From NCBI GenBank assembly GCA_946499885.1, contig CAMMTN010000017.1, positions 1 to 36,609 of the forward strand: a stretch of 36,609 nucleotides of DNA. The letters are read 5' to 3'. A program made the translations under genes and the position numbers. Below the pieces are notes generated by a model. It saw only the letters and a program-made list of their open reading frames with translations. It was not told where the DNA came from and did not search any database. This DNA comes from an uncultured Clostridium sp. (GTDB taxonomy: Bacteria > Bacillota > Clostridia > TANB77 > CAG-508). Below, piece by piece: positions 2,995 to 36,418 of this stretch; the stretch's first letter is position 1, and the number at the start of each line of letters is the position of its first letter.

Positions 2995-3822
2995 ATGGGA
3001 ATAAAAAGATTCAAAGCCTATACACCATCAAGAAGAAATATGACTGTATTAGACTATAGCGAAATAACAAAGAAAACTCCTGAAAAATCTTTAATAACAA
3101 CAAAAAAAGAAAAAGCAGGAAGAAACGCACAAGGTAAAATTACAGTTAGACATCAAGGTGGAGGAAATAGACAAAAATACAGAATAATAGATTTTAAAAG
3201 AAATAAAGTGGATATGCCAGCAACAGTTATTGGTATAGAATACGATCCAAACAGAAGTGCAAACATAGCTTTAATCCAATATGAAGATGGGGAAAAAGCA
3301 TATATATTAGCACCAGTTGGATTAACAGATGGAGCTGTTGTAGTATCAGGAGAAAAAGCTGATATTAAACCAGGAAATTGTATGAAAATAGAAAACATAC
3401 CAGTTGGTACAATGATTCATAACATCGAATTAAATCCAGGTCAAGGTGGAAAATTAGTTAGAGCTGCTGGTCAAGAAGCTCAATTAATGGCTAAAGAAGG
3501 TAAATATGCTCATGTTAGATTACCTTCAGGTGAAATGAGATTAGTTATGGCTGTATGTAAAGCTACAATTGGAACAGTAGGAAATCAAGAACATGAAAAT
3601 GTTAAACTTGGTAAAGCTGGTAGAAAAAGACATATGGGTTGGAGACCAACAGTTAGAGGTTCTGTAATGAACCCAGTAGATCACCCTCATGGTGGTGGTG
3701 AAGGTAGAGCTCCAGTAGGACACGCAGGACCAATGACTCCTTGGGGTAAACCAGCACTTGGATATAAGACAAGAAAGAAAAATAATAGAACAGATAAATT
3801 TATAGTAAAAAGAAGAAAATAG
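2995..3822 (+). CDS. rplB: 50S ribosomal protein L2
   Basis: L2, needed for subunit association and assembly of the peptidyl transferase centre. The 275-residue length is standard. The OB/SH3 body is followed by the highly conserved C-terminal loop with [16 protein letters not shown] (about residues 222-237), which carries the catalytically implicated His. AAGGAG is about eight bases upstream of the start. It is followed by a 118-nt gap that holds pseudoknot element PK-1. Confidence 0.98.
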
Positions 3823-3844
3823 TAAGGAGCGCTAAAAACTGACA

Positions 3845-3915
3845 TCACTTATTCACAATTAGGGGCATATCATGTCCCAAGTATAAGTGACGAAAGGGAA
3901 AAGATGTGTCCCCTT
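3845..3915 (+). repeat. PK-1: pseudoknot-type element upstream of rpsS
   Basis: Upstream strand TCACTTAT (3845-3852) is perfectly complementary to ATAAGTGA (3883-3890), which lies in the loop of a hairpin. The hairpin stem is AGGGGCATATC (3861-3871) with GATGTGTCCCCT (3903-3914), containing one bulge and one G-U pair. An inner CCC/GGG helix (3876-3878 with 3896-3898) frames the loop. It ends 25 nt before the rpsS ATG, next to its AAGGAGG. The stem is a diverged form of the family stem GGGGACATACCTC. Confidence 0.75.
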
Positions 3916-3940
3916 ACCGATGAAAAGGAGGAATAATTAA

Positions 3941-4219
3941 ATGTCAAGATCAAGCAAAAAAGTTCCATTTGTTGCTCCAGAGTTAATGAAGAGAATAGAA
4001 GCAATGAATGAAAGTGGAAAAAAAGAAGTTATAAAGACATGGTCAAGAGCTTCTACAATATATCCACAAATGGTTGGACATACAATAGCAGTACATGACG
4101 GAAGAAAACATGTGCCAGTATATATATCTGAAGAAATGATTGGACATAAATTAGGCGAATTTGCGCCAACAAGAACATTTAAAGGACACGCAGGAGACAA
4201 AACAACATCAAAGAAATAA
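3941..4219 (+). CDS. rpsS: 30S ribosomal protein S19
   Basis: S19, in the 30S head where it forms a complex with S13 and contacts A-site tRNA. At 92 residues it is normal in length. Motifs are [15 protein letters not shown] at the start, [29 protein letters not shown] in the middle and [16 protein letters not shown] at the end. AAGGAGG lies about nine bases upstream. It sits between PK-1 and an array of four hairpins. Confidence 0.97.
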
Positions 4220-4224
4220 GATGA

Positions 4225-4338
4225 TTGTGCATTTACTAAATCAAAGATTTCGATGCACAAATGTGCAAATTGCTTTGCAATATTGCACAATCCAAGGTAA
4301 ATTAACCTTGTTGTTTCAGAAAAATTTAACAATTTTTC
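4225..4338 (+). promoter_or_regulatory. Array of four hairpins between rpsS and rplV
   Basis: In order: TTGTGCAT (4225-4232) with ATGCACAA (4253-4260); GTGCAA (4263-4268) with TTGCAC (4283-4288), enclosing ATTGC/GCAAT; CAAGGT (4293-4298) with ACCTTG (4305-4310); and GAAAAATT with AATTTTTC (about 4319-4338). The last ends about 30 nt before rplV. The GTGCA-TTGC-GCAA-TGCAC design recurs at 18951-18978, so it may be a further small repeat family. An overlapping frame at 4161-4349 is a shadow. Confidence 0.5.
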
Positions 4339-4367
4339 TTACACAATAATAAAGGAGGGAATCTAAA

Positions 4368-4727
4368 GTGGAAGCAAAACAAGAAATCATACCACAAGCA
4401 AAAGCTACTCTTAAATATGCTAGAATTTCTTCAAGAAAAGTTAAAATTGTAGCAGATTTAATAAAAGGTAAAGATATAGATGAAGCTGTAGCTATATTAA
4501 AATATACTCCAAAAGCTTCATCAGAAGTATTAGAAAAATTATTAAAATCAGCAATAGCTAATGCTGAAAATAACCATAATATGGCTCATGAAAAATTATA
4601 TGTAGCTGACATATTTGCAAACCAAGGTCCAACATTAAAAAGAATAAGACCTGCAGCAAAAGGTTCAGCAGTTAGAATAAGAAAAAGAACAAGTCATATT
4701 ACAATAGTATTAAAAGAGAGAGATTAA
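4368..4727 (+). CDS. rplV: 50S ribosomal protein L22
   Basis: L22, whose beta-hairpin lines the narrow part of the exit tunnel and is a known macrolide-resistance position. The product has 119 residues from a GTG start placed ten bases after AAAGGAGGG. Family motifs are [31 protein letters not shown]-like [20 protein letters not shown], and the hairpin/C-terminus [28 protein letters not shown]. It is followed after 27 nt by rpsC. Confidence 0.97.
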
Positions 4728-4754
4728 TAGAAAGGAAAGGAGGACATTTATAAA

Positions 4755-5417
4755 ATGGGACAAAAAATGGATCCACATGGATTAAGAGTTGGTATTATTA
4801 AAGATTGGGATTCTAAATGGTATGCAAATAAAAAAGAATTTGGAGATTATTTAGTAGAAGACCATAAAATTCGTGTGTATGTTAAGAAAAAATTATATGC
4901 AGCTGGAATTTCTAAGATTGAAATTGAAAGAACAGCTAAATTCGTTAAAATTAATGTTTATGCAGCAAAGCCTGGAATTATTATAGGAAAAGGTGGAAAT
5001 CTTGCTGAAAGCTTAAAAGCTGAATTACAAAAAATGATAAATAAAGAAGTAAATTTAAATATAGTTGAGGTTAAAAGTATAGACTTAGATGCTCAATTAG
5101 TTGCAGAAAATATAGCTGGACAATTAGAAAGAAGAATTTCTTTTAGAAGAGCTATGAAACAATGCATGCAAAAAACTATGAAATCAGGTGCTTTGGGAAT
5201 TAAAACTTCAGTATCTGGAAGATTAGGAGGAGCAGATATGGCTAGAACTGAATTCTATAAAGAAGGAACTATTCCACTTCAAACTTTAAGAGCTGATATA
5301 GATTATGGATTTGCAGAAGCAGATACAACATATGGAAAAATCGGTGTTAAAGTTTGGATATATAAAGGAGAAGTTCTTCCTACTAAAAAGAGAGTAGTGG
5401 AAGGAGGAGACAAATAA
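4755..5417 (+). CDS. rpsC: 30S ribosomal protein S3
   Basis: S3, at the mRNA entry channel, where with S4 and S5 it takes part in the ribosomal helicase activity. The 220-residue product has the N-terminal signature [21 protein letters not shown], a KH-2 RNA-binding domain with the GxxG-type loop IIIGKGG (about residues 75-81), and the C-terminal domain with [22 protein letters not shown] lies about ten bases upstream. Its TAA overlaps the rplP ATG by one base. Confidence 0.98.
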
Positions 5418-5860
5418 TGCCATTAATACCAAAAAGAACAAAATATAGAAAACAACAAAAAGGTAGAAATAGAGGTAAAGCTACTAGAGGAAATAGAGTA
5501 ACAGATGGACAATATGGTTTACAATCTCTAGAAGCTGGACAAATAACATCTAACCAAATAGAAGCAGCCCGTGTAGCTATGACACGTTATATAAAAAGAG
5601 GTGGTAAAGTTTGGATTAAAATATTCCCAGACAAACCAATAACTAGAAAACCTATCGGTACTCGTATGGGTAAAGGTAAAGGTGCTGTTGAATTTTGGGT
5701 AGCAAATGTAAAACCAGGTAGAGTAATGTTTGAAATAGACGGTGTAGCAGAAGAAGTAGCTAGAGAAGCTTTAAGACTTGCTGCAAACAAACTATCTGTT
5801 AAGTGCAAATTTGTACAAAAGGAAACTGAAATAGGTGGTGAAAAAGATGAAGATAAATAA
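5417..5860 (+). CDS. rplP: 50S ribosomal protein L16
   Basis: L16, which organises the A- and P-site tRNA region of the large subunit. The 147 residues compare with the usual 137-145. Clear motifs are [17 protein letters not shown] at the start, [24 protein letters not shown] (about 51-74) and [20 protein letters not shown] (about 81-100). The start is coupled to rpsC by TAATG, with GGAGG in the end of rpsC. Its own end overlaps rpmC by 14 bases. Confidence 0.97.
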
Positions 5861-6047
5861 AATAAAAGAAATGTCTTCACCTGACTTAGAAAAAGAATTA
5901 GGAGAATTAAAATCAGAGTTATTTAAGTTAAGATTTAGTTTAGCAACTCATGGATTAGATAATCCTATGAAAATAAAAGAAGTTAAGAAAGACATTGCTA
6001 GAATTAATACAGTTTTAACTGAAAGAAAGTTAAAAGAAAATAAATAA
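5847..6047 (+). CDS. rpmC: 50S ribosomal protein L29
   Basis: L29, a small helical hairpin protein at the tunnel exit next to L23. I choose the ATG at 5847 (66 residues, the normal length) over the GTG codons at 5835 and 5838, because AGGTGG lies eight bases before it. The sequence starts [20 protein letters not shown] and carries the family helix [36 protein letters not shown]. The first 14 bases overlap the end of rplP in another frame. Confidence 0.95.
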
Positions 6048-6066
6048 TTAAGAAAGGAGATTTAAC

Positions 6067-6330
6067 ATGGAAGAAAGAAATCTTCGTAAAGAAATGATTG
6101 GTATTGTTTCATCTGATAAAATGGATAAAACAGTAGTTGTATCTGTTGAAACAAGTGAGAAGCATAAGACTTATGGAAAAGTTCAAAAAAGAACATATAA
6201 GCTTAAAGCACATGATGAAAACAATGAATGCCAAATAGGAGATAAAGTTAGAGTAATGGAAACAAGACCTTTATCTAAAGATAAAAGATGGAGAGTAGTT
6301 GAAATCTTAGAAAAGGCAGTAATAAAATAA
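6067..6330 (+). CDS. rpsQ: 30S ribosomal protein S17
   Basis: S17, a primary 16S rRNA binder with an OB fold. It has 87 residues, typical in length. Matches include [17 protein letters not shown] near the start, [19 protein letters not shown] in the middle, and [27 protein letters not shown] at the end. AAAGGAG lies nine bases upstream. A 250-nt gap follows before rplN, containing two tandem PK elements. Confidence 0.97.
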
Positions 6331-6358
6331 AAATATGAAACAGGAGAACATTAAATAA

Positions 6359-6437
6359 AGGGTAAACACTAGAATATAAGGTGAGAGGACATACCTCGAA
6401 CCGAATAAGGAGTGACCCTAGGTAAGAGGTGTGTCCT
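6359..6437 (+). repeat. PK-2: first of two tandem pseudoknot-type elements before rplN
   Basis: Upstream strand AGGGT (6359-6363), AAA, CACT (6367-6370) is complementary to loop AGTGACCCT (6411-6419). Hairpin stem AGGACATACCTC (6386-6397) pairs with GAGGTGTGTCCT (6426-6437) over 12 bp with one G-U. Here the pseudoknot bases are GGG/CCC where the neighbouring copy has AGG/CCT, a compensatory change. AAGGAGG follows at 6450-6456 with no gene behind it. Confidence 0.8.
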
Positions 6438-6470
6438 GGAATAAATATAAGGAGGCAAACACTCAAATAA

Positions 6471-6550
6471 AAGGTAAACACTGGAACATAAGGGGAGGGG
6501 ACATACCTCGAACCGAATGAGAAGTGACCTTAGGCAAGAGGTGTGTCCCC
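6471..6550 (+). repeat. PK-3: second tandem element, 30 nt before rplN
   Basis: AAGGT (6471-6475), AAA, CACT (6479-6482) is complementary to loop AGTGACCTT (6523-6531). Stem GGGGACATACCTC (6497-6509) pairs with GAGGTGTGTCCCC (6538-6550), 13 bp with one G-U. It is the closest match to the family consensus and ends just upstream of the rplN AAGGAGG. Confidence 0.85.
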
Positions 6551-6580
6551 TGACATTAGAAAAAAGGAGGAAAAATAGAG

Positions 6581-6949
6581 ATGGTACAACAACAAACTAT
6601 ATTAAAAGTAGCAGATAATACAGGCGCAAAAGAAATTATGTGTATCAGATGTCTAGGCGGTTCTTATAGGAAATATGCTAGAATTGGTGACATAATAGTT
6701 GCTTCTGTTAAAACAGCTACACCAGGTGGCGTTGTAAAAAAAGGTGATGTTGTTAAAGCTGTTGTTGTAAGAACTAAAAAGCCTACTAGAAGAGCAGATG
6801 GTTCTTATGTAAGATTTGATGAAAATGCAGCAGTTATAATAAGAGAAGATGGAACACCAAGAGGAACTCGTATATTTGGACCTGTTGCAAGAGAATTAAG
6901 AGAAAAAGATTATATGAAGATTTTATCTCTTGCCCCAGAAGTTCTTTAA
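6581..6949 (+). CDS. rplN: 50S ribosomal protein L14
   Basis: L14, on the subunit interface beside L19 and the binding site of RsfS. The 122 residues are standard length. Signature stretches are [20 protein letters not shown] (about 9-28), [15 protein letters not shown], and the C-terminal [23 protein letters not shown]. The start follows AAAGGAGG by about twelve bases. It lies between tandem PK-2/PK-3 and the long palindrome LP-1, whose outer arm begins in its stop codon. Confidence 0.97.
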
Positions 6950-7074
6950 TCTCAAAAATAAACGGCGTCTTGCGTTGTCAAAATTTAGACAAAAAAACCT
7001 CGACGTACACAAAGTACGCCTTCGATATTTTTGCTAAATTTTTCCTAGCAATACTTGTTTCTTTTTAAGATTAA
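6946..7074 (+). repeat. LP-1: long palindromic element between rplN and rplX
   Basis: Outer arms TTAATCT (6946-6952) and AGATTAA (7068-7074) enclose the conserved left box CTTGCGTTGTCAA (6969-6981) and right box TTTCCTAGCAATACT (about 7041-7055). The centre folds with AAAATTTAG against CTAAATTTT, CAAAAA against TTTTTG, and CGTAC against GTACG around the loop ACAAA. This is one of six copies in the window. The boxes are shared by all copies, while the outer arms differ and remain complementary. Confidence 0.75.
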
Positions 7075-7202
7075 TAACTATAAAAAATAAATTCTATAAA
7101 AATATTTTAAATGCATTACTCAATTTAAAGAAAAAATTGGTAATTGAAATATAAAAAGTTCAAATTTATAAATCTCACTTAAAGGAAGAGGTGAAAGAAG
7201 TA

Positions 7203-7511
7203 ATGAGAATAAAAAAAGGAGATACAGTTAAAGTTTTATCAGGAAATGATAAAGGAAAGACAGGAGAAGTATTAGAAATAATACCTAAAACAGAAAGAAT
7301 AATTGTTAAAGGTATAAATATAAGAAAAAAACACGTTAAGGCAAGAAAGCAAGGAGAGGAAAGCGGAATTATTTCAGTTGAATGTCCTATACATAGCAGT
7401 AAGGTAAATGTTGTTTGTCCAAAATGTGGAAAGGCTACAAGAATACAATATAAAATTGAAAAAGATGAAAAAGTACGTGTTTGCCAAAAATGTGGAGCAA
7501 AAATAAAATAA
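7203..7511 (+). CDS. rplX: 50S ribosomal protein L24
   Basis: L24, an assembly initiator protein with a KOW domain. I choose ATG at 7203 (102 residues), nine bases after AGAGGTG; a GTG at 7191 would add four residues with poor ribosome-site spacing. The KOW core is IKKGDTVKVLSGNDKGKTGEVLEI. The C-terminal half holds a zinc ribbon, CPKC (72-75) and CQKC (94-97), a form common in Clostridia. The gene is 253 nt from rplN and 30 nt from rplE. Confidence 0.95.
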   Translation: MRIKKGDTVKVLSGNDKGKTGEVLEIIPKTERIIVKGINIRKKHVKARKQGEESGIISVECPIHSSKVNVVCPKCGKATRIQYKIEKDEKVRVCQKCGAKIK

Positions 7512-7541
7512 TATGTAAAGAAAGGAGGACTATTTAAACTT

Positions 7542-8081
7542 ATGGAAATTTTAAGAGATCAATATGAAAAAGAAATTATACCAGCAATGATGAAAAAATT
7601 TAACTATAAATCAGTTATGCAAGTTCCAAAGTTAGAAAAAATAGTTATAAATATAGGTTTAGGTGATACTAAAGATAATCCTAAATCACTAGAAAATGCT
7701 ATAAATGATGTTACAATTATAACTGGACAAAAACCAATTGTAACAAAAGCAAAAAAAGCTATAGCAGCCTTCAAAATAAGAGAAGGAATAAATATGGGAT
7801 GTAAAGTTACATTAAGAAAAGGAAAAATGTATGATTTTGCATACAAACTATTTAATGTAGCACTTCCAAGAGTTAGAGACTTTAGAGGAGTTTCAAGTAA
7901 TTCATTTGATGGTAGAGGAAATTATTCAATGGGAATTAAAGAACAATTAATATTTCCAGAAATCGAATATGATAAAATAGACAAAATAAGAGGAATGGAT
8001 ATAATCTTCGTTACAACTGCAAAAACAGACGAAGAAGCTAAGGAATTACTTACTCTACTTGGTATGCCATTTAAAAATTAG
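7542..8081 (+). CDS. rplE: 50S ribosomal protein L5
   Basis: L5 binds 5S rRNA in the central protuberance and contacts P-site tRNA. It has 179 residues, the family length. It opens with [34 protein letters not shown]. Further conserved parts are [21 protein letters not shown] (about 65-85), [28 protein letters not shown] (about 107-134) and the end [12 protein letters not shown]-like [25 protein letters not shown] precedes the ATG. Confidence 0.98.
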
Positions 8082-8083
8082 AG

Positions 8084-8206
8084 AAAATTAATGAAAAGCT
8101 TCGTCTTGCGTTGTCAAGCGTTGCAAAAAAGTTCTCAATATACACAAAGTATTATTTCAAACTTTTTTGCTAGCTTTCCTAGCAATACTCGCTTTTGATT
8201 AATTTT
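8084..8206 (+). repeat. LP-2: long palindromic element between rplE and rpsZ
   Basis: Outer arms AAAATTAATGAAAAGC (8084-8099) and GCTTTTGATTAATTTT (8191-8206) are complementary at 15 of 16 positions. Inside lie the left box TCTTGCGTTGTCAA (8104-8117), a CAATATACACAAAGTATT centre and the right box TTTCCTAGCAATACT. It lies directly behind the rplE stop codon. Confidence 0.75.
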
Positions 8207-8278
8207 ACAATTAATTAGGAAAATAATTAAAACTGAAATAATAATTTGATTAGAGAAAATTTGAGAAAGGAGAATAAA

Positions 8279-8464
8279 ATGGCTAAAAAATCTTTAAAAG
8301 TAAAACAACAAAGAGCCCAAAAATATAAGACTAGAGAATATAATAGATGTAAAATTTGTGGAAGACCACATGCATATATTAGAAAATTCGGAATTTGCCG
8401 TGTATGCTTTAGAGAATTAGCTCATAAGGGAGAAATTCCAGGAGTTAAGAAAGCTAGCTGGTAA
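8279..8464 (+). CDS. rpsZ: 30S ribosomal protein S14, zinc-binding short form
   Basis: S14 type Z, in the 30S head. It has 61 residues from ATG 8279, nine bases after GAAAGGAG; an in-frame ATT 33 bases upstream is not supported. Two CxxC pairs, CKIC (24-27) and CRVC (40-43), define the zinc-binding C+ form. The ending [10 protein letters not shown] is typical. The gene lies between LP-2 and PK-4. Confidence 0.97.
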
Positions 8465-8507
8465 TTAAAATCCAAATAAAAAAATAAACAGGCAAGCATT
8501 TAAAAAC

Positions 8508-8586
8508 AGGTAATCACTAAAATATAAGGGGAGGGGACATACCTCAAACCGAATAATAAGTGATCCTAGGTAAGAGGTGTGTCCCC
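8508..8586 (+). repeat. PK-4: pseudoknot-type element 28 nt before rpsH
   Basis: Upstream strand AGG (8508-8510), TA, ATCACT (8513-8518) is complementary to loop AGTGATCCT (8559-8567). Relative to PK-3 the loop has GAT in place of GAC, and the upstream strand has a matching A. Stem GGGGACATACCTC (8533-8545) pairs with GAGGTGTGTCCCC (8574-8586). AAGGAGGG of rpsH follows at once. Confidence 0.8.
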
Positions 8587-8614
8587 TGTCATAAAAAAAA
8601 AGGAGGGAAAAGAA

Positions 8615-9013
8615 TTGAATACAACAGATCCAATAGCAGATATGTTAACAAGAATAAGAAATGCAAATAGCTCAAAGCATAAAACAGTTGATGTTCCAGC
8701 ATCAAATATGAAAAGAGCGATAGCTAATATTCTATTTAAAGAGGGATATATAGCAGCATTTGAAGAAATAGATGATTCTCGTCAAGGAATTATAAGAATA
8801 ACTCTAAAATATGATGAAAAAGGAAAAAGAGTTATTGACGGAATAAAAAGAATAAGTAAACCAGGATTAAGAGTATATGCATCTAAAGATGAATTACCTA
8901 AAGTATTAAATGGTTTAGGTATAGCTCTTATATCTACTTCAAAAGGAATAAAAACAGACAAAGAAGCAAGAAATGAAGGCTTAGGAGGAGAAGTTCTTGC
9001 GTATGTATGGTAA
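8615..9013 (+). CDS. rpsH: 30S ribosomal protein S8
   Basis: S8, a primary assembly protein of the 30S platform; in E. coli it also represses the spc operon. I place the start at TTG 8615, seven bases after AGGAGGG, giving 132 residues, the exact family length, beginning [18 protein letters not shown]. The open frame continues upstream into PK-4 but has no ribosome site there. The conserved C-terminus [27 protein letters not shown] is complete. Confidence 0.96.
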
Positions 9014-9039
9014 TTTTAAAAGAAGGAGGGAAAAGAAAG

Positions 9040-9579
9040 ATGTCAAGAATAGGAAACAAACCTATTAATGTACCAGATGGTGTAGAAGTTAAAATAGACG
9101 GACATCACGTTACAGTAAAAGGACCAAAAGGAACATTAGAAAGAGATATACATAAAAATATTACAGTATCATTAGAAGATAAAGTAATAACTGTAAAAAG
9201 ATGTGATGATGAACCAGAAAATAGAAGCTTACATGGTTTAACAAGAACTTTAATAAGCAATATGATAGAAGGAGTTCTTAATGAATATAAAAGAGAATTA
9301 GAAATTAATGGTGTAGGTTATAGAGCTCAAAAGAAAGGAAATAAATTAGTAATGAACTTAGGATACTCTCATCCAGTTGAGATGGATCCACCAGAAGGGA
9401 TTACTTTTGATGTTCCAGACGCTAACCACATTACAGTAAGAGGAATAGACAAAGAAGTAGTTGGTCAAACAGCAGCTGTTGTAAGAACAAAAAGACCACC
9501 TGAAGTATATAGAGGTAAAGGTATTAAGTATGCCGAAGAGCATATTAGAAGAAAAGAAGGCAAGGCAGGTAAAAAATAA
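9040..9579 (+). CDS. rplF: 50S ribosomal protein L6
   Basis: L6, near the sarcin-ricin loop and factor-binding site. ATG 9040, about eight bases after GGAGGG, gives 179 residues, the usual size; the longer frame from 9007 overlaps rpsH and is rejected. Signatures are MSRIGNKPINVPDGVEV, GPKGTLERDIHKNI and the C-terminal RPPEVYRGKGIKYAEEHIRRKEGKAGKK. The stop codon lies in the arm of LP-3. Confidence 0.97.
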   Translation: MSRIGNKPINVPDGVEVKIDGHHVTVKGPKGTLERDIHKNITVSLEDKVITVKRCDDEPENRSLHGLTRTLISNMIEGVLNEYKRELEINGVGYRAQKKGNKLVMNLGYSHPVEMDPPEGITFDVPDANHITVRGIDKEVVGQTAAVVRTKRPPEVYRGKGIKYAEEHIRRKEGKAGKK

Positions 9580-9703
9580 AATTTTAATGAAAAGCTTCGT
9601 CTTGTGTTGTCAACCATCACAAATAATTTTTCAATGTACAAAACGTACAATTTCAAAATTATTTGTTCGGTTTCCTAGCAATACTTGCTTTTGATTAAAA
9701 TTT
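9579..9703 (+). repeat. LP-3: long palindromic element between rplF and rplR
   Basis: Outer arms AAATTTTAATGAAAAGC (9579-9595) and GCTTTTGATTAAAATTT (9687-9703) are complementary at all but one position. Inside are the left box TCTTGTGTTGTCAA (9600-9613), a centre with CAATGTACAAAACGTAC and AAATAATTTT against AAAATTATTT, and the right box TTTCCTAGCAATACT (9671-9685). It overlaps the last base of rplF. Confidence 0.75.
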
Positions 9704-9795
9704 AAAACCTTATATACTTGATTTATATATAAGCGCAAAGTAAAAATCTAAATTAAACTAAGAGCAAAATCTTTTAGTTAGAAAGGAGATTGAAA

Positions 9796-10155
9796 ATGAT
9801 TACAAAAACAGACAGAAAAGCTGAAAGAGAAAGAAGACATGCAAGAGTACGTAGAAAAATTTCAGGAACATCTGAATGCCCAAGATTATGTGTATTTAGA
9901 AGCAATAACAATATATATGTACAATTAATAGATGATGTTAAAAAAACAACATTAGCACAAGCTTCTACATTAGATAAAGAAGTAAAAACAAAACATTCTA
10001 ATAAAGAAGCTGCTAAAGAAGTAGGGGCATTAATTGCAAAAAGAGCTTTAGAGAAAAAAATAGATACAGTAGTTTTCGATAGAGGCGGATACATATATCA
10101 TGGTGTTGTTAAAGAATTAGCTGAAGCTGCAAGAGAAAGCGGATTAAAATTTTAA
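9796..10155 (+). CDS. rplR: 50S ribosomal protein L18
   Basis: L18 binds 5S rRNA with L5. ATG 9796, seven bases after AAAGGAG, gives 119 residues; a TTG six bases upstream is too close to the ribosome site. Family parts are [36 protein letters not shown] near the start, and [26 protein letters not shown] at the C-terminus, typical of bacterial L18. The gene lies between LP-3 and PK-5. Confidence 0.97.
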
Positions 10156-10185
10156 AAAATAAAAACAGGAGAACATTTTAATAAA

Positions 10186-10262
10186 GGTCATAATTAGAAA
10201 ATAAAGGGGAGGGGACATACCCCAAACCAAATAAGAAGTGACCATAGGTAAGGTGTGTCCCT
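10186..10262 (+). repeat. PK-5: pseudoknot-type element 26 nt before rpsE
   Basis: Upstream GGTCA (10186-10190) is complementary to TGACC (10239-10243) in the hairpin loop. The stem is GGGACATACC (10212-10221) with GGTGTGTCCC (10252-10261), one G-U pair. The stem is shorter at the loop side than in PK-3. It ends next to the AAAGGAGG of rpsE. An in-frame extension of rpsE into this element is not translated in my reading. Confidence 0.75.
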
Positions 10263-10288
10263 TGACATTAGTAAAGGAGGAAAGAAAA

Positions 10289-10780
10289 GTGCAATCAGAA
10301 AATATATCTGAATTAAAAGAAAAAGTTGTAGCTATAAACAGAGTTGCAAAGGTTGTAAAAGGTGGTAGAACATTCAGATTTAGTGCAGTAGTTGTTGTTG
10401 GTGATGAAAATGGACACGTTGGTGTTGGAAATGGAAAAGCATCAGAAGTTCCAGACGCAATCAAAAAAGCTATTGAAGATGCTAAAAAGAATTTAGTAGA
10501 AGTGCCTGTTGTTGATTCAACAGTACCACATGAATATGTAGGAAAATTCGGTAGTGCTAATGTTTTATTAAAACCAGCAGAAGAAGGTACTGGAATTATA
10601 GCAGGCGGTAGTGTTAGACCAGTTCTAGAACTTGCTGGATATAGAAATATTAGAACAAAGATAATTGGAACAAATAATCCAAGAAATGTTGTTTATGCTA
10701 CAATAGAAGGATTAAAAGCTATGCAAACTGTAGAAACAGTTGCTAAAAAAAGAGGAAAAAAAGTAGAAGATATATTATAA
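10289..10780 (+). CDS. rpsE: 30S ribosomal protein S5
   Basis: S5, a decoding-fidelity protein and part of the mRNA entry helicase. GTG 10289, eight bases after AAAGGAGG, gives 163 residues, near the usual 166. The double-stranded-RNA-binding-like N-domain ([23 protein letters not shown]) and the C-domain with [25 protein letters not shown] (about 105-129) are intact. rpmD, which normally follows rpsE, is absent; PK-6 fills the gap. Confidence 0.97.
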
Positions 10781-10805
10781 AAATTATAAAATAGGGAAAA
10801 CACTT

Positions 10806-10872
10806 ATTTACAAGGGTAGGGGATATAACTTACCAAAAGTGTAAATGTCATAGAGTAAATGGGTGTCCCCTA
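10806..10872 (+). repeat. PK-6: diverged pseudoknot-type element 34 nt before rplO
   Basis: Upstream ATTTACA (10806-10812) is perfectly complementary to loop TGTAAAT (10840-10846). Stem TAGGGGATAT (10817-10826) pairs with GTGTCCCCTA (10863-10872), with two G-U pairs. The primary sequence of the pseudoknot helix is quite different from PK-2 to PK-5 while the layout is kept. It occupies the place where rpmD usually lies. Confidence 0.65.
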
Positions 10873-10906
10873 ACAAAAAAAGAAAAATAGGAGGTGTACA
10901 AACAAA

Positions 10907-11341
10907 ATGAAATTAGACGAATTAAAACCAGCACAAAAAAATAAAACTAGAACTAGAGTAGGACGTGGAGTTGGTTCTGGTTTAGGAAAGACTTCAGGAA
11001 GAGGTCATAAAGGGCAAAAAGCAAGATCTGGTGGAGGAGTAAGAAGAGGATTCGAAGGTGGTCAAACTCCTTTATATAGAAGATTACCAAAAAGAGGATT
11101 TACAAATATTCATGCAAAAGTGTACACAGAAGTAACTTTAACAATGCTTAACAAAGCAACAACAGAAGAAGTTACAGCTGAAAGCTTAATAAATGATGGA
11201 ATAATTAGTAAAGCAAATGATGGTATAGTAATACTTGCAACTGGTAAACTAGACAAGAAACTAACAGTTAAAGCAACAAGATTCACTAAAGCAGCTATTG
11301 AAAAAATAGAAGCTTTAGGTGGAAAGACAGAGGTGATTTAA
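10907..11341 (+). CDS. rplO: 50S ribosomal protein L15
   Basis: L15, a late-assembly large-subunit protein. It has 144 residues, family length. The glycine-rich N-terminus [26 protein letters not shown] is typical and is followed by [17 protein letters not shown]. The C-terminal globular part ends [21 protein letters not shown] lies about ten bases upstream of the ATG. secY begins immediately after its stop codon. Confidence 0.97.
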
Positions 11342-12664
11342 TTGTTTAAAACACTAAGAAATGCATTAAAGACTCCAGATGTTAGAAAAAAATTGTTATA
11401 TACTTTATTACTTATAGTAATATTTAGATTAGGATGTTATATAACAGTTCCAGGAGTTGATACATTTGCATTAAGCGAAGCTTTTGGAAATACAAATGGA
11501 ATAGCATCACTTATAGATATGATTTCAGGTGGAGCTTTTTCAAGATTTTCAATATTTGCAATGTCTATAAGTCCATATATTACAGCATCAATCGTAATTC
11601 AATTATTAGCTATGATTATACCTTCTTTAGAAAGATTAACTAAAGAAGGTGGAGAAGAAGGTAGAAAGAAAATTAATAAATATACTAAACTTCTTACTGT
11701 ATTTTTAGCATTAATTGAAGGATTAGGATTATATTTATCATACAGTTCATCTGGAATATTTATGGATACAGGTTTTGCAACAGGATTTACTGTAGTAATT
11801 TCATTAATGGCAGGAACTGCATTATTAATGTGGCTAGGTGATGAAATTACAAATAAAGGTATAGGAAATGGTATATCTATAATCATATTTGTAGGTATTA
11901 TAGCAGGGCTTCCAGGAGCGATAACTACAATTTGGAGTTTAATTATGGGAAGTGGTGCATTTAGTACAACAGGACTTTTAATATCTTTAGGAATTATAAT
12001 AGGAGCTTTAATATTAGTAGCAGCAGTTGTATTTGTACAACAAGCTGAAAGAAGAGTACCTGTACAATATTCAAAAAGAGTAGTTGGAAGAAAAATGGTT
12101 GGAGCACAAAATACACATATTCCATTAAAACTTGTTATGGCAGGAGTTATGCCAATAATATTTGCATCATCATTTTTAACATTTCCAGCGATGATTATAC
12201 AAATGTTCATAAGTGATATTGCAAGTCAAACAGGATTTTGGGCTACAATATATAAATTCTCAATAGCATCATCAACATCAAGTGTTGGATGGGGATATAC
12301 AATAGCAAATGCGTTAGTGTATTTACTATTAATAGTAGGATTCACATTCTTCTATACTTATGCTACATTTAATCCAGCAGAAGTATCAAATAATATAAAA
12401 AGAAATGGTGGATTTATACCAGGTATAAGAGCAGGAAAACCAACAACTGATTATTTAAGTTCAATAATTAGTAAATTAACTTGGTTTGGTGGATTATACT
12501 TAGCAATAATTGCAATAATTCCTATGCTTGTAAGATTTATACCAAATGTAGATTTGGCATTTGGAGGAACTTCAATATTAATCGTTGTAGGTGTTGCATT
12601 AGAAACAATACAACAATTAGAATCACAACTTGTAATGAGACATTACAAAGGATTTTTAGAATAA
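11342..12664 (+). CDS. secY: Preprotein translocase channel subunit SecY
   Basis: SecY forms the protein-conducting channel in the cytoplasmic membrane with SecE and SecG. The product has 440 residues from a TTG start that abuts the rplO stop, with AGAGGTG in the end of rplO. Ten hydrophobic segments can be followed. The plug/N-terminal region FRLGCYITVPGVD, the TM2 segment FSIFAMSISPYITASIVIQLL and the cytoplasmic loop QQAERRVPVQYSKRVVGRK are characteristic, as is the late loop FNPAEVSNNIKRNGGFIPGIRAGKPT. It is the only clear membrane protein of the operon. Confidence 0.98.
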   Translation: MFKTLRNALKTPDVRKKLLYTLLLIVIFRLGCYITVPGVDTFALSEAFGNTNGIASLIDMISGGAFSRFSIFAMSISPYITASIVIQLLAMIIPSLERLTKEGGEEGRKKINKYTKLLTVFLALIEGLGLYLSYSSSGIFMDTGFATGFTVVISLMAGTALLMWLGDEITNKGIGNGISIIIFVGIIAGLPGAITTIWSLIMGSGAFSTTGLLISLGIIIGALILVAAVVFVQQAERRVPVQYSKRVVGRKMVGAQNTHIPLKLVMAGVMPIIFASSFLTFPAMIIQMFISDIASQTGFWATIYKFSIASSTSSVGWGYTIANALVYLLLIVGFTFFYTYATFNPAEVSNNIKRNGGFIPGIRAGKPTTDYLSSIISKLTWFGGLYLAIIAIIPMLVRFIPNVDLAFGGTSILIVVGVALETIQQLESQLVMRHYKGFLE

Positions 12665-12676
12665 TGAATAAGAAAG

Positions 12677-12703
12677 CTGACCGCACTTTTTGGGTGCGGG
12701 CAG
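12677..12703 (+). promoter_or_regulatory. G+C-rich hairpin between secY and adk
   Basis: CTG, A, CCGCAC (12677-12686) pairs with GTGCGG, G, CAG (12694-12703) around a T-rich loop. No T-run follows, so it is more likely an mRNA processing or stability hairpin than a terminator. The rest of the 114-nt gap to adk shows nothing clear. Confidence 0.4.
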
Positions 12704-12778
12704 ATTTGCGTAATATATAACAAAATTAAGCTAATGAACTAAATGTAAAATAAAAGCCTAGAAAGGAATGAATAAATT

Positions 12779-13441
12779 ATGTATATAGTAATGCTTGGAG
12801 CTCCAGGAACTGGGAAAGGTACTATTGGAAAAATTTTATCTCAAGATTTAAATTTAGTACATATTTCAACTGGAGATATATTTAGAGAGCAAATAAGTAA
12901 AGAAACAGAATTAGGTAAAAAAATAAAACAATACATAGATAATGGAATTTTAGTTCCAGATGATGTTGTTATAGAAACTGTTAAGGCTAGGTTATTAGAA
13001 AAAGATGTAGAAAATGGAGCAATTCTTGATGGTTTCCCTAGAACTGCTATGCAAGCAGAAGCTTTAAAAGAATTTTTAAAAGAAAATAAGCCTCAAGAAA
13101 AAAGAGTTGCAATAGAATTAAACGTTCCAGATGATGAAATAATTAGAAGAGTTGTTAATAGATTAATATGTACTAATAAATCTTGTGGTGCAATATATAA
13201 CAAAGAAACAAAACCACCAAAAAAAGAAGGTATTTGCGATATTTGTGGAAGCACTTTAAAAAGAAGAGAAGATGATAATGAAGAAACAGTTTCAAAAAGA
13301 CTTGCGATATATCATCAAAATGCAGAAGAATTATTAGAATTCTATAGAAAAAATAATGCTTTATATTCAATATACCCAAAAGAATTAGAAAAAGCAGTAA
13401 GCGATATAAAAAAATTTCTAGAAGAATATAAAAGGAAGTAA
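12779..13441 (+). CDS. adk: Adenylate kinase
   Basis: Converts ATP plus AMP to two ADP in the cytosol. The 220-residue product has the P-loop GAPGTGKGT (7-15), the AMP-binding STGDIFR (30-36) and DGFPRT (84-89) segments, and a long LID domain. The LID has four cysteines (131, 136, 153, 156) that form the zinc site of Gram-positive adenylate kinases. AAAGGAA is the ribosome site. The TAA overlaps the map ATG by one base. A secY-adk-map order is standard in Firmicutes. Confidence 0.97.
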   Translation: MYIVMLGAPGTGKGTIGKILSQDLNLVHISTGDIFREQISKETELGKKIKQYIDNGILVPDDVVIETVKARLLEKDVENGAILDGFPRTAMQAEALKEFLKENKPQEKRVAIELNVPDDEIIRRVVNRLICTNKSCGAIYNKETKPPKKEGICDICGSTLKRREDDNEETVSKRLAIYHQNAEELLEFYRKNNALYSIYPKELEKAVSDIKKFLEEYKRK

Positions 13442-14217
13442 TGAAAGTGGTTACTATAAAATCAGAAAAAGAAATTAAATTAATGAAAGAAGCTTGCAGA
13501 ATAACTAGTTTAGTATACAAAGAAATTGAAAAAGTTATTAAACCAGGAATGTCTACACTAGAGCTAGATAGATTTGCAGAAAAAATAATAAAAGAAAATG
13601 GTGGAACTCCAGCACAAAAAGGTTATCCAAGTGGAATGAAGGGTGTAGGACCATTTCCAGCAACATTATGTATTTCAATAAATGATGAAGTTATTCATGG
13701 AATACCATCTTCAAAGAAAATAATACATGATGGGGATTTAGTAAGCATTGACTTAGTTGTCTATAAAGATGGATTTAATGGAGATGCAGCAAGAACTTTT
13801 GTAGTAGGAAATGCAAGCAAAGAAGCTAGAAGATTAGTAGAAATAACAAGAGAGGCTTTCTTTGAAGGAATTAAATATGCTGTAAAAGGGAATAGAATAG
13901 GAGATATATCTCATGCTATAGGTGAATTTGTAGAAAAAAATGGTTATAGTGTAGTAAGGGAATTTCAAGGACATGGAATTGGCAGAGAAATGCATGAAGA
14001 TCCAGGAATACCAAACTATGGAAAAGCAGGAAGAGGAATTAGATTAGAACCAGGTATGACACTTGCAGTAGAACCAATGGTTATTGCAGGCAAAAGAGAT
14101 ATATATCAAGATTATGATGGCTGGACAATTTTAACAGATGATGGAAGTTTAGCAGCACATTATGAAAATACTATTTTAATTACAGAAAAAGAGCCAGAAA
14201 TATTGACATTAGTTTAA
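13441..14217 (+). CDS. map: Methionine aminopeptidase, type I
   Basis: Removes the initiator methionine from new proteins. The 258-residue length fits the simple type Ia enzyme without zinc-finger extension. The substrate-pocket His lies in NDEVIHGIPS, two metal-binding Asp in SIDLVVYKDGFNGDAARTF, the His in GHGIGREMHEDPGIPNYG, and the Glu ligands in TLAVEPM and HYENTILIT. The start is coupled to adk (TAATG, with AGGAAG just upstream). The 3' end contains the infA promoter. Confidence 0.97.
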   Translation: MKVVTIKSEKEIKLMKEACRITSLVYKEIEKVIKPGMSTLELDRFAEKIIKENGGTPAQKGYPSGMKGVGPFPATLCISINDEVIHGIPSSKKIIHDGDLVSIDLVVYKDGFNGDAARTFVVGNASKEARRLVEITREAFFEGIKYAVKGNRIGDISHAIGEFVEKNGYSVVREFQGHGIGREMHEDPGIPNYGKAGRGIRLEPGMTLAVEPMVIAGKRDIYQDYDGWTILTDDGSLAAHYENTILITEKEPEILTLV

Positions 14218-14231
14218 TTTTGTTATATACT
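14203..14231 (+). promoter_or_regulatory. Consensus promoter for infA-rpmJ-rpsM-rpsK-rpsD-rpoA-rplQ
   Basis: A perfect TTGACA (14203-14208) and TATACT (14226-14231) with a 17-nt spacer. The -35 box is inside the last codons of map. The predicted start is near 14238, inside a small hairpin AAGTGTT (14236-14242)/AACACTT (14256-14262) that would form the 5' end of the transcript, just ahead of the infA ribosome site. Confidence 0.75.
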
Positions 14232-14288
14232 ATATAAGTGTTTAATGTAAAATAGAACACTTGACTAAAAAAGAAAATGGAGGTCAAT

Positions 14289-14507
14289 ATGTCAAAAGAA
14301 GATGTTATAGAAGTTGAGGGAACTGTAGTAGATACATTACCAAATACTACATTCAAAGTAGAACTTGAAAATGGACATCAAATTTTAGCTCATATTTCAG
14401 GAAAACTTAGAATGAACTACATAAAAATCTTGCCAGGAGATAAAGTTAAAGTTGAATTATCACCTTATGACTTAAATCGTGGAAGAATTACATGGAGAGC
14501 TAAGTAA
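14289..14507 (+). CDS. infA: Translation initiation factor IF-1
   Basis: IF-1 occupies the A site of the 30S subunit during initiation. ATG 14289, five bases after ATGGAGG, gives exactly 72 residues, the family length. The single S1/OB fold is complete: [29 protein letters not shown], then [29 protein letters not shown] and RGRITWR. A longer open frame starts four codons earlier in the ribosome site and is rejected. Confidence 0.97.
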
Positions 14508-14560
14508 AATAAAAATATTAACCCAAATATATAATTTTTATAGTAAAGAGGTGTAAGAAA

Positions 14561-14674
14561 ATGAAAGTAAGACCATCAGTAAAACCAATTTGCGAAAAAT
14601 GCAAAGTTATAAAAAGAAAAGGTGTAATTAGAGTTATTTGTGAAAACCCTAAACACAAACAAAGACAAGGATAA
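14561..14674 (+). CDS. rpmJ: 50S ribosomal protein L36
   Basis: L36, the smallest large-subunit protein. Reading from ATG 14561 to TAA 14672-14674 gives 37 residues starting [16 protein letters not shown]. The zinc-binding residues C11, C14, C27 and H32 of the C+ form are all present. AAAGAGGTG lies ten bases upstream. It lies in its usual place between infA and rpsM, followed by a structured 194-nt gap. Confidence 0.97.
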
Positions 14675-14686
14675 TAAAAAGTTAAT

Positions 14687-14832
14687 AACACAAATCTAGA
14701 TTCGCGGCTATAACTGTTAAAATTTTATTTAACAGTTATATATCAGGTTTGTGTCTAATATATTGTTTGAAAACATATTAAAGATTGGTATATAACCAAT
14801 GCATTTCACCTTTAATAAAGTCCAAACACAAA
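14687..14832 (+). promoter_or_regulatory. Structured gap between rpmJ and rpsM with alternative pairings
   Basis: A 13-bp hairpin TATAACTGTTAAA (14709-14721)/TTTAACAGTTATA (14728-14740) is enclosed by ACACAAA (14688-14694) and TTTGTGT (14748-14754). The same TTTGTGT can instead pair with a second ACACAAA at 14826-14832, which would enclose ATTGGT/ACCAAT and ATTAAAG/CTTTAAT helices. These folds exclude each other, the geometry of a regulatory leader. It precedes the rpsM ribosome site by about 20 nt. Confidence 0.45.
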
Positions 14833-14868
14833 ATAAATAATAAAACAAAGTGGAGGTGCTAAAAAATT

Positions 14869-15234
14869 ATGGCTCGTTTAGCAGGCATTGATTTACCTAG
14901 AGAAAAAAGAGTTGAGATTGGATTAACATATATATATGGTATAGGTTTAACAAGCTCACAAAAAATATTAAAAGCAGCAAATGTAAATCCTGATATAAGA
15001 GTTAAAGACTTAACTGATGACCAAGTACAAGCAATAAGAAAAGCTATGGAAGGTTACAAAGTAGAAGGAGACTTACGTAGAGAAGTTGCTTTAAATATTA
15101 AAAGACTTACAGAAATAGGATGCTATAGAGGTTTAAGACATAGAAGAGGCTTACCAGTTAGAGGACAAAGAACAAAAACTAATGCTAGAACAAGAAAAGG
15201 TCCTAGAAAGCTAGTTAGCAAAAGCAAAAAGTAA
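14869..15234 (+). CDS. rpsM: 30S ribosomal protein S13
   Basis: S13, in the 30S head, bridging to the large subunit and touching P-site tRNA. It has 121 residues, standard. It begins [26 protein letters not shown], with the helix-two-turn-helix region following, and ends in the basic tail [28 protein letters not shown] lies about eleven bases before the ATG. It sits between the switch-like gap and LP-4. Confidence 0.97.
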
Positions 15235-15245
15235 ATTCAATAAAT

Positions 15246-15367
15246 AAAATCAATTTTAAACTTCATACTGCGTTGTCAAACTTCGTAAAAATTTTTTCAA
15301 TGTATACACATACTATTTCAAAAATTTTTACTCGTTTTCCTAGCATTATTCGTTTTAAATTGATTTT
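15246..15367 (+). repeat. LP-4: long palindromic element between rpsM and rpsK
   Basis: Outer arms AAAATCAATTTTAAAC (15246-15261) and GTTTTAAATTGATTTT (15352-15367) are complementary at 15 of 16 positions. Inside are the left box ACTGCGTTGTCAAA (15267-15280), the centre GTAAAAATTTTTT against AAAAATTTTTAC, CAATGTATACACATACT, and the right box TTTTCCTAGCATTATT. The arms are unlike those of LP-2 or LP-3. Confidence 0.75.
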
Positions 15368-15486
15368 AAGAACATATGTTACCTAAAAAAGTATAATTGG
15401 TGATTATCACTTGATTTAGATAAATAATATTAAAAAATTAAAAGATTTACGATAGTGAATAATTCTAAAAAGGAGGAAAAACTAAA

Positions 15487-15882
15487 ATGGCTAAAAATGT
15501 AACAAAAAAAGTAACTAGAAGAAGAGACAGAAAAAACATAGAAAAAGGTATGGCTCATATTCATTCTAGTTTTAATAACACAATAGTTACAATAACAGAT
15601 ACTCAAGGTAATGCACTATCTTGGGCAAGTGCCGGAGAACTTGGATTTAAAGGTTCAAGAAAAAGTACTCCATTTGCAGCTGGAGAAGCAGCTGAAACAG
15701 CAGCTAAAGCAGCAATGGAACATGGACTAAAATCAGTTGAAGTTTATGTTAAAGGACCAGGTTCTGGACGTGAAGCAGCTATTAGATCATTACAATCAGC
15801 AGGATTAGAAATAAGTAGCATTAAAGATGTTACTCCAATACCACATAATGGTTGTAGACCACCAAAAAGAAGAAGAGTTTAA
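15487..15882 (+). CDS. rpsK: 30S ribosomal protein S11
   Basis: S11, on the 30S platform near the E site. The 131 residues are typical. Matches run from [27 protein letters not shown] through [21 protein letters not shown] to the invariant C-terminal [24 protein letters not shown] is about ten bases upstream. It is followed by tandem PK-7 and PK-8 before rpsD. Confidence 0.98.
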
Positions 15883-15910
15883 CAAAAAAATAAATAGGAG
15901 AGCACTTAAG

Positions 15911-15990
15911 TAAGGTTAATCACTAAAACATAAGGGGAGGGGACATACCTCGAACCGAAGTGGAAGTGACCTTAGATAAGAGGTGTGTCC
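15911..15990 (+). repeat. PK-7: first of two tandem elements before rpsD
   Basis: Upstream TAAGGT (15911-15916) and CACT (15921-15924) are complementary to loop AGTGACCTTA (15965-15974). Stem GGACATACCTC (15941-15951) pairs with GAGGTGTGTCC (15980-15990). It lacks the outermost CC of the consensus arm. A purine-rich AAAGGGAG (16006-16013) follows without a gene, as after PK-2. Confidence 0.8.
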
Positions 15991-16025
15991 AAAACAAAAA
16001 ATAAAAAAGGGAGAATACTAAAAAA

Positions 16026-16102
16026 GGGTAAACAGTAAATCACAAGGAAAGGGGACATACATTGTCCCAATAGGAATACCCCGATATAAATGTGTATCCC
16101 CT
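16026..16102 (+). repeat. PK-8: second tandem element, 29 nt before rpsD
   Basis: Upstream GGGTA (16026-16030) is complementary to loop TACCC (16077-16081). Stem AGGGGACATACATT (16050-16063) pairs with AATGTGTATCCCCT (16089-16102) with one mismatch and one G-U. The loop-side half of the stem is changed on both strands relative to PK-3 (ATT with AAT in place of CTC with GAG), again compensatory. Confidence 0.75.
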
Positions 16103-16131
16103 AACATTAATTAGGAAGGTGAAAATTAAAA

Positions 16132-16758
16132 ATGGCAAGATATAAAGATGAACAATGCCGTATTTGCCGTAGAGAAGGACAAAAATTGTTTTTAAAAGGT
16201 TCAAGATGTTATACAGACAAATGTAGCATATCAAGAAGAAACTATGCTCCAGGACAAAATGGTCAAAAGAAGAAAAAACTTTCTGAATATGGTACACAAT
16301 TAAGAGAAAAACAAAAAACAAAAGCTTACTATGGAGTAAGTGAAAAACAATTTAGAAAATACTTCGAAATGGCTTCAAATACAAAAGGTATAACAGGTGA
16401 AGTATTACTTCAAATATTAGAAAGTAGATTAGATAATGTAGTATATAGACTAGGATTAGGTAGCTCAAGAGCACAAGCTAGAATGCTTGTAACACATGGC
16501 GCTTTTGAAGTTAATGGTCATAAAGTAGATATACCATCATATTTAGTAAAAGCAGGAGATGTAATCTCTGTAAGAGAAATTAGAAAAGATAACGGAGCTA
16601 TTAAAGCAAACGTAGAAGAAAATGCAGCAAAACCAGTTCCAGCTTGGCTTGAAAAAGATGCAGAAAAATTAAGTGGTAAAGTTGTAAGATTAGCAGCAAG
16701 AGAAGATATAGACTTACCAGTCGAAGAACACTTAATAGTAGAGCTTTACTCTAAATAA
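16132..16758 (+). CDS. rpsD: 30S ribosomal protein S4, zinc-binding form
   Basis: S4, a primary 16S rRNA binder; it is a translational repressor of its own mRNA in several bacteria. The 208 residues include cysteines at 9, 12, 26 and 31, the zinc-binding C+ form, and the S4 RNA-binding domain [34 protein letters not shown] (about 98-131). It ends with the family stretch [24 protein letters not shown] lies nine bases upstream. Its place in the alpha cluster, rather than alone as in Bacillus subtilis, fits Clostridia. Confidence 0.97.
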
Positions 16759-18351: not shown

Positions 18352-18360
18352 TAAGAAAAA

Positions 18361-18429: not shown

Positions 18430-18471
18430 ATTCATATAATATGGTAACTAGTATAAACTTAGGAGGTTATC

Positions 18472-35092: not shown

Positions 35093-36418
<1,326 letters not shown>

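Follow-up and report, generated by a model that had tools for sequence, protein, structure and literature searches.

The stretch of DNA considered here, termed the window, comprises positions 1 to 36,609 of contig CAMMTN010000017.1 (C17), one of the 52 contigs of the 1.67 Mb assembly GCA_946499885.1 from an uncultured Clostridium sp., and carries the S10-spc-alpha gene cluster. NCBIfam confirms rpsS, rplN, rpsH, rpsE, rplO and rpsD in the window, as well as rpsG and fusA on contig C9; the remaining gene names in the window are taken from gene order. Eight copies of a pseudoknot-type RNA element, PK1 to PK8, lie on the plus strand in the gaps before these six ribosomal-protein (r-protein) genes, with tandem pairs before rplN and before rpsD. 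An earlier reading of the letters, referred to below as the original prediction, had described eight co-oriented copies before six r-protein starts, each with a strand complementary to the loop of a following hairpin. All eight are present on the same strand, and the complementary strand was found together with a stem of 13–14 bp. The distances proposed at that time between element and start codon, 25, 30, 28, 26, 34 and 29 nucleotides (nt), are close to those remeasured from the last C of the stem, namely 27 nt for rpsS, 30 for rplN, 28 for rpsH, 26 for rpsE, 36 for rplO and 30 for rpsD. In addition, a DNA similarity search revealed a ninth copy in the rpsG-fusA gap of contig C9, directly 5' of the fusA ribosome-binding site (RBS) and 26 nt from the start codon.

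The element is approximately 90–110 nt long and has the strand order of an H-type pseudoknot, in which strand A pairs with strand A' in the loop of a hairpin and the arms of that hairpin, B and B', form the long stem. From 5' to 3', a unit consists of a box resembling a Shine-Dalgarno sequence (SD) in about half of the copies, A, the letters AAGGGG, B, the loop containing A', B', some 13 nt, the native SD and the start codon. The consensus strands are GG..UCACU..UCAY for A, RUGA..AGUGA..CC for A', AGGGGACAUACCUC for B and GAGGUGUGUCCCCU for B'. In the common form, the A:A' loop pairing is a longer interrupted helix; read by eye, PK1, PK6 and PK8 pair the loop in other registers, which the pairings listed in the original prediction already show, and PK5 pairs less well. 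Pseudoknot-free minimum free energy folding returns the long stem as best in six of the nine copies of this genome (PK1–PK5 and PK7); PK6, PK8 and PK9 fold into different hairpins. The fold z-scores are between −1.4 and −4.6 (−4.2 to −4.6 for PK2–PK4, −2.6 for PK1, −1.9 for PK5 and PK7). Copies also differ at the 3' end. When PK2, PK7 and the non-terminal tandem copies of five related loci (L053, L054, L056, L057 and L058) were compared, five of nine non-terminal copies ended in GTGTCCTGAAATAA and PK2 came close to it; the ends of gene-proximal copies are mostly GTGTCCCCTGACA or similar, which indicates that the lower stem is complete only beside the gene.

A DNA search of the same genome with a single copy recovers six further copies. 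A covariance model, R1, was built from the eight window copies and the fusA copy, and scores these nine with expectation values (E) of 7e-22 to 4e-11; as they match by construction, the informative point is that nothing else does, there being no tenth copy above noise in this genome and the next match (E 0.31) being the antisense of a known copy. All nine copies lie between co-directional translation genes, on the gene strand. The coordinates of the copies, of the parts of PK3 and of other repeats in the window are collected in Table 1.

Table 1. Pseudoknot copies, parts of the PK3 unit and other repeats, in positions of the window.
Feature	Positions	Strand	Remarks
PK1, before rpsS (S19)	3833..3920	+	class II form, local GGGGC..GUCCC hairpin; R1 E 3.7e-11
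PK2, first (non-terminal) of tandem pair before rplN (L14)	6354..6445	+	R1 E 5e-19
SD-like 5' box (AGGAGG) of PK3 unit; likewise the sequence after PK2	6450..6455	+	read
PK3, gene-proximal copy before rplN	6466..6557	+	R1 E 7.3e-22
PK3 strand A (GGU aaa CACU), partner of 6523-6529	6473..6482	+	read; pairing counts over 38 copies
PK3 strand B (AGGGGACAUACCUC), 5' arm of long stem	6496..6509	+	sequence, folding
PK3 strand A' (AGUGACC), in long-stem loop	6523..6529	+	sequence, pairing counts
PK3 strand B' (GAGGUGUGUCCCCU), 3' arm, partner in conserved U.G wobble	6538..6551	+	sequence, folding
Native Shine-Dalgarno of rplN, 3' of stem	6564..6570	+	read
PK4, before rpsH (S8)	8502..8593	+	R1 E 2.5e-21
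PK5, before rpsE (S5)	10180..10269	+	R1 E 1.7e-15
PK6, before rplO (L15)	10788..10877	+	R1 E 1.9e-13
PK7, first (non-terminal) of tandem pair before rpsD (S4)	15908..15999	+	R1 E 2e-17
PK8, gene-proximal copy before rpsD	16020..16108	+	R1 E 1.2e-15
Second repeat family	6966-7068, 8085-8205, 9584-9698, 15247-15366, 34814-34902, 34975-35029		imperfect palindromes (CTTGCGTTGTC...CCTAGCAATACT)
Palindromes GAACTTTAGGGACGTTCCTTAAAGTTC	18359-18430, 31416-31512, 36414-36526		
Inverted GGGGACGTAC pair	24324-24404		

Across 56 genomes, including that of the window, R1 gives 54 matches at E ≤ 0.1. Thirty-eight of these, at E ≤ 1e-4, belong to ten genomes that are all of the window's own genus (the nine copies above included), and every one lies in an r-protein gap or the rpsG-fusA gap, on the gene strand. 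The genes preceded in the genus are rpsS, rpsC, rpsQ, rplN, rpsH, rpsE, rplO, rpsD and fusA, varying by species, with up to three tandem copies per gap. Of the 16 weak matches, five fall in r-protein gaps and two are antisense of strong ones; four lie elsewhere, three of which are plain inverted repeats, and for five the context was not read. The neighbourhood of rpsD was surveyed in 80 named loci from metagenome-assembled genomes (uncultured Clostridium, Clostridia or Clostridiaceae, and one Erysipelotrichaceae), yielding 49 matches at E ≤ 0.1, of which 47 share the strand of rpsD; among the 36 read, 34 stand beside genes of the r-protein cluster and two, both inverted repeats, elsewhere. This survey added gaps before rplE, rpsN, rplF, rplR, rpsK and rplQ. 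Triple tandem arrays with a spacing of ~77 nt were also seen before rplV and rpsQ in one locus (L225, from contig C11 of genome G170). With a second model, R2, derived from a diverged subclass, the family was detected in 68 of the 287 genomes of the order, and 64 of these belong to the window's family; across the class, 10 of 391 genomes have matches at E ≤ 1e-4, seven of them outside the order.

Pairing was assessed mainly in two sets of sequences, class A (97 sequences, reduced to 66 by thinning to 82% identity) and class C (60, thinned to 51), class A being free of matches in three plain-inverted-repeat loci, one truncated match, two odd rows and the class C rows. Covariation was scored by an own approximation of R-scape with a tree-aware null of 20 null alignments. 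In the 97 class A sequences, the two highest-ranking of all column pairs both belong to the stem (E = 0), and the next pairs have E of at least 1.3; in the combined core of 156 sequences, two stem pairs reach E = 0 and one stem-base pair E = 0.1. No single A:A' pair passes the null. When duplexes of own strands were compared with swapped ones in class A (n = 66), B:B' reached −18.9 vs −15.7 kcal/mol (z −10.8) and A:A' −5.7 vs −4.6 kcal/mol (z −5.2), the stem base being unsupported; in class C (n = 51), B:B' gave z −6.5.

Pair counts point in the same direction. In a plain MAFFT alignment of the 38 strong genus copies, A:A' is paired in 81.8% of cases vs 76.1% when shuffled and at most 42.2% when slid, with 24 double changes vs 10.2, and B:B' in 92.3% vs 89.0%, with 23 double changes vs 6.8. 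A further alignment, A6, holds the best 150 of 163 matches, several of them antisense, and was fitted to the structure; its 140 distinct rows are paired at 83.8% vs 76.6% in shuffles, with a covariation of 0.258 vs 0.138 shuffled and at most 0.129 slid, and 233 stem cells altered on both sides vs 115. A U.G wobble in B:B' is retained in 37 of the 38 genus copies and in 112 of the 140 A6 rows, a conservation that fits RNA better than duplex DNA. Judged from these alignments, the long stem covaries, and the loop pairing is supported in class A by swapped duplexes and pair counts and not in class C.

The distance to the gene is also conserved. In class A, a start codon with SD was found by rule in 86 of the 97 copies, at a median of 29 nt from the stem end (interquartile range, IQR, 27–31; 69 of 86 within 25–34 nt), with the SD beginning a median of 13 nt 3' of the stem; in class C, starts were found for 49 of 60 copies, at a median of 41 nt (IQR 36–45). 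Upstream, the SD-like box (AGGAG, GGAGA or AAGGA) occurs at −62 to −31 of B in 44 of the 97 class A copies, 40 of them at −45 to −39, compared with a mean of 10.5 and a maximum of 19 in 300 mononucleotide shuffles. The preceding stop codon lies a median of 53 nt 5' of B (91 copies), so that the element fills the intercistronic gap. For the 12 gene pairs having gaps of both kinds in the 80 named loci, the median gap is 91–263 nt with the element vs −17 to 69 nt without it, lengths that are rough, as starts were placed by similarity; two further gene pairs had no element-bearing copy and one had no data. The predicted probability that the SD is unpaired is 0.62 with the element, 0.65 with it deleted and 0.58 with it shuffled in class A (n = 77), and 0.68, 0.68 and 0.60 in class C (n = 41), with cut points slightly off, as the stem end is misplaced in copies with a CTGTCA tail (23 nt for rpsH, where 28 is correct). 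According to this folding model, the SD is not sequestered by the element.

Strong copies of the element are confined to r-protein operons within the genus, apart from those of fusA, and are not so confined in other genera. Six genomes of other genera gave 72 matches, of which 62 were read. By rule, 61 of the 62 are followed within 250 nt by a start codon with SD on the same strand, vs 4 of 62 in an antisense control; the single exception, read by eye, stands before a very short gene. In 44 of the 62, no more than 33 nt separate the match end from the start; the others are for the most part non-terminal members of tandem arrays, or copies of class C with a conserved tail. On the upstream side, 57 of the 62 have an open frame of 60 codons or more on the same strand, no further than 250 nt away. 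In one of these genomes, G130, all 17 copies precede 17 different genes, with the start 7–32 nt after the match. Seven of these genes were named by NCBIfam above cut-off (sufU, minC, rlmB, pyrH, scpB, murG and proS), three below cut-off (phosphoglycerate kinase, pgk; ribulose-phosphate epimerase; a HIT protein) and others by Pfam (an Na/H exchanger, YabP and a heavy-metal-domain protein), with no Pfam family for three of the ten downstream proteins searched. Downstream genes in other genomes include frr, ftsA, rplS and a mraY-like transferase, fusA and rpsJ by similarity, and tuf, rplT and uppS by eye.

On this sequence evidence, the element is tentatively regarded, at a little under an even chance, as a cis-acting translation-initiation element, perhaps a standby or re-initiation pad. 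Because the RBS is open, the spacing nearly fixed, the orientation sense, and the two helices and the wobble are features of RNA, it may act on the initiating 30S subunit, an action proposed by analogy with the standby pseudoknot of tisB and likewise held just short of probable. Since the SD is unsequestered and the element fills the space from stop codon to RBS, a structured landing, standby or re-initiation pad would be its most likely form. The element occupies the gap between two co-directional cistrons, the transcription of which is assumed from operon context, and would abut the 5' edge of the downstream RBS and affect initiation of the downstream cistron. The folded RNA might hold or space a 30S subunit, which would first touch the SD-like 5' box where there is one, and deliver it to the real SD, and each cistron of the long r-protein messenger RNA (mRNA) could thereby be initiated on its own.

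The original prediction had taken the copies for a module that tunes the translation of each cistron and senses a common signal rather than one protein. Its observation is confirmed, and its interpretation is supported in part. Covariation among homologues is significant for the long stem; orientation is uniform in 9 of 9 copies of the genome and 38 of 38 strong genus copies, and other genera give 61 of 62 against 4 of 62 antisense; and class A copies adjoin start codons. These results support a repeated module at the RNA level tied to individual start codons, and the housekeeping genes preceded in other genera argue, in line with the original prediction, against one r-protein as the general regulator.

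Several results weigh against an initiation element. Class C taken by itself has no column pair that survives the tree-aware null, the best (E = 2) being a stem pair, and upstream-to-loop pairing is undetectable there (n = 51, p = 0.37–0.44). In class A, the inner alternative helices, P2 and P3, are unsupported by own-versus-swapped duplexes (n = 66). The SD-like box is missing from 53 of the 97 class A copies, and its pairing with A' or B' is unsupported in the same test of that class. Presence in the genus is patchy (12 of 30 genomes at E ≤ 0.001, one of which, G015, holds a plain inverted repeat), and hence no gene needs the element. Outside the order, distant matches are mostly off starts, with four of the 13 places read lying within 33 nt. 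Moreover, as SD accessibility is barely altered, simple folding does not predict that the element affects initiation.

A broader version of the initiation reading, which is doubtful, would make the element a portable initiation module of a lineage of gut Clostridia. Its copies would uncouple cistrons and recruit their own 30S subunits, and r-protein operons would consist of cistrons initiated separately rather than form a coupled chain. The module may be a domesticated repeat resembling repetitive extragenic palindromic (REP) sequences that, in sister genera, spread to housekeeping genes across the genome.

Among other explanations, an mRNA processing or stability element is unlikely but survives best. 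Here, the pseudoknot would mark or block nucleases between cistrons and thereby set cistron-specific mRNA levels, for example by stopping RNase J as it degrades 5'-to-3', or by offering RNase III a site within the 13 bp stem. The location between cistrons beside the RBS and the tandem arrays of two or three suit such a role, as does the stability of the stem in the common form (PK2–PK4), which is weaker in PK5, PK7 and PK1. However, spacing to the start codon with an IQR of 27–31 nt is tighter than a decay barrier requires, and the conservation of the U.G wobble and of the pseudoknot would be left unexplained.

Known r-protein leaders can be pseudoknots, as those of the Escherichia coli alpha operon (S4) and rpsO (S15). 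With this precedent, and with all 38 strong genus copies in r-protein or rpsG-fusA gaps, the element could be an autogenous leader. A single r-protein would then bind all copies and repress each cistron independently, in place of translational coupling. This is quite unlikely, as the gene preceded differs between species of the genus, from rpsS to fusA, and other genera carry copies before pgk, sufU, minC, rlmB, pyrH, scpB, murG, proS and others; such spread to unrelated housekeeping genes counts against one r-protein as general regulator.

It is also distinctly unlikely that the element is a REP-like or IS200/IS605-like DNA repeat mobilised by Y1 transposases of the REP-associated tyrosine transposase (RAYT) type, its placement reflecting insertion bias or selection and its RNA fold having no role. 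Y1_Tnp genes are present in 19 of 20 genomes tested, and the copies resemble insertions of ~100 nt with patchy presence. Several of ten Y1 flanks read carry GGGGACGT.. or GGGACAT.. palindromes, sharing GGGGAC(G/A)T.. cores with the B stem, and the palindrome of one flank, in G275, contains GGGACATACCTT and AAGGTATGTCCCC; distant relatives of the element (families f27, f65, f77 and f88) are intergenic and mostly off starts, some with an adjacent second copy. In contrast, the uniform orientation to the downstream gene, the 29 nt spacing, the confinement to r-protein and str operons in the genus, the compensatory changes in the B stem and A:A' and the conserved U.G wobble do not suit a DNA repeat, and 30 Y1 transposase loci hold no R2 match better than E 0.027. 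Membership of the IS200/IS605 or REP families was rejected, as size, orientation and placement do not fit and no strong match lies beside these 30 loci. The resemblance of cores suggests that the B stem could descend from REP-like repeats near Y1 genes.

A riboswitch-like element that senses growth state through a global metabolite or ion and shifts between alternative folds is improbable. Many downstream genes are growth-related housekeeping genes, the AGGGGA, UCCC and AGGGGA strands give competing pairings by eye in several classes, and some loop letters are conserved. Nevertheless, the SD lies outside both folds, and no highly conserved multi-loop pocket was found on inspection of the alignments. 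A bistable switch, with a local P2 hairpin competing with B:B' and P3 as alternative, was rejected, given that neither helix has own-versus-swapped support in class A and that P3 is no more than weakly supported in class C (p = 0.008). Finally, a self-cleaving ribozyme separating cistrons would account for a pseudoknotted, repeated RNA in varied gene contexts but is very improbable, in view of the lack of an Rfam ribozyme match and of any clearly invariant unpaired core; the topology of the hepatitis delta virus (HDV) type was rejected by element order, because B and A' of class I are too close together for a hairpin to fit between them.

The window contains other repeats. The second repeat family sits in several r-protein gaps without a pseudoknot element and in the rpsL-rpsG gap, and has 15 matches at E < 0.01 in the same genome, one being the antisense of the query. 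The GAACTTTAGGGACGTTCCTTAAAGTTC sequence also flanks a Y1/RAYT-type transposase gene on contig C1, which makes the window copies probable REP-like repeats of that gene. The inverted GGGGACGTAC pair resembles palindromes flanking a second Y1 transposase gene, on contig C7.

Structured leaders of bacterial r-protein operons are usually seen as single, protein-specific switches that use translational coupling. A small pseudoknot copied before many cistrons at a nearly constant distance from their starts, and before housekeeping genes as well, would represent a different wiring of such operons. The initiation reading provides a testable model for setting initiation cistron by cistron and a candidate portable translation part for low-GC Firmicutes, and may offer a case of a repeat element domesticated as a 5' untranslated region (UTR) RNA.

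At gathering cut-offs, Rfam 15 matches the whole window once, at a transfer RNA at its end, and nowhere at the elements; a permissive scan of 3500-16500 gave eight matches, all far below cut-off, and five loci with class I–III copies (L129, L124, L098, L085 and L119) had no match at the elements. A skipping-rope RNA of Rfam was noticed at 12069-12140 of L129, downstream of a relative's r-protein cluster. The literature search, whose scope excluded supplements, preprints and subscription papers, returned no repeated r-protein pseudoknot matching the element. The element matches no described RNA family checked, which does not establish its absence in print.

The element can be compared with several known systems. 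The S4 leader of the E. coli alpha operon is a pseudoknot that covers the RBS, has one site per operon and binds S4. The element shares with it the pseudoknot fold and a position ahead of r-protein starts within the same gene cluster; unlike it, the element occurs at many sites, leaves the RBS outside (SD at a median of 13 nt after the stem end) and precedes non-r-protein genes too. Comparative genomics has proposed r-protein leader candidates, each before a single gene (PMC8040213, PMC11109978), which, like the element, are structured RNAs preceding r-protein genes in Clostridia or the human microbiome but, as far as the accessible text of these papers goes, are not described as repeated within an operon. 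REPs, including GTAG- and CGTC-tagged palindromes, are described as 20–40 bp long, frequently arranged as head-to-head dimers and in most cases located 3' of coding regions, with CGTC tags changed to TGTC also noted (PMC3733652). The element resembles them as a repeated intergenic palindrome with a stem core similar to the palindromes flanking Y1 genes here, and differs in being ~90 nt long, in one orientation, upstream of starts and with a loop pseudoknot. In tisB of E. coli, a 5' UTR pseudoknot is reported to be required for 30S/S1 binding and standby-mediated translation, and the RBS is sequestered ~100 nt downstream of the standby region (PMC7708055). The element likewise is a 5' UTR pseudoknot with compensatory change, here in the form of sequence covariation in class A and not class C; unlike that of tisB, its RBS is predicted to be open (SD unpaired 0.62 with and 0.65 without it), it ends ~29 nt before the start codon, and it stands before many genes.

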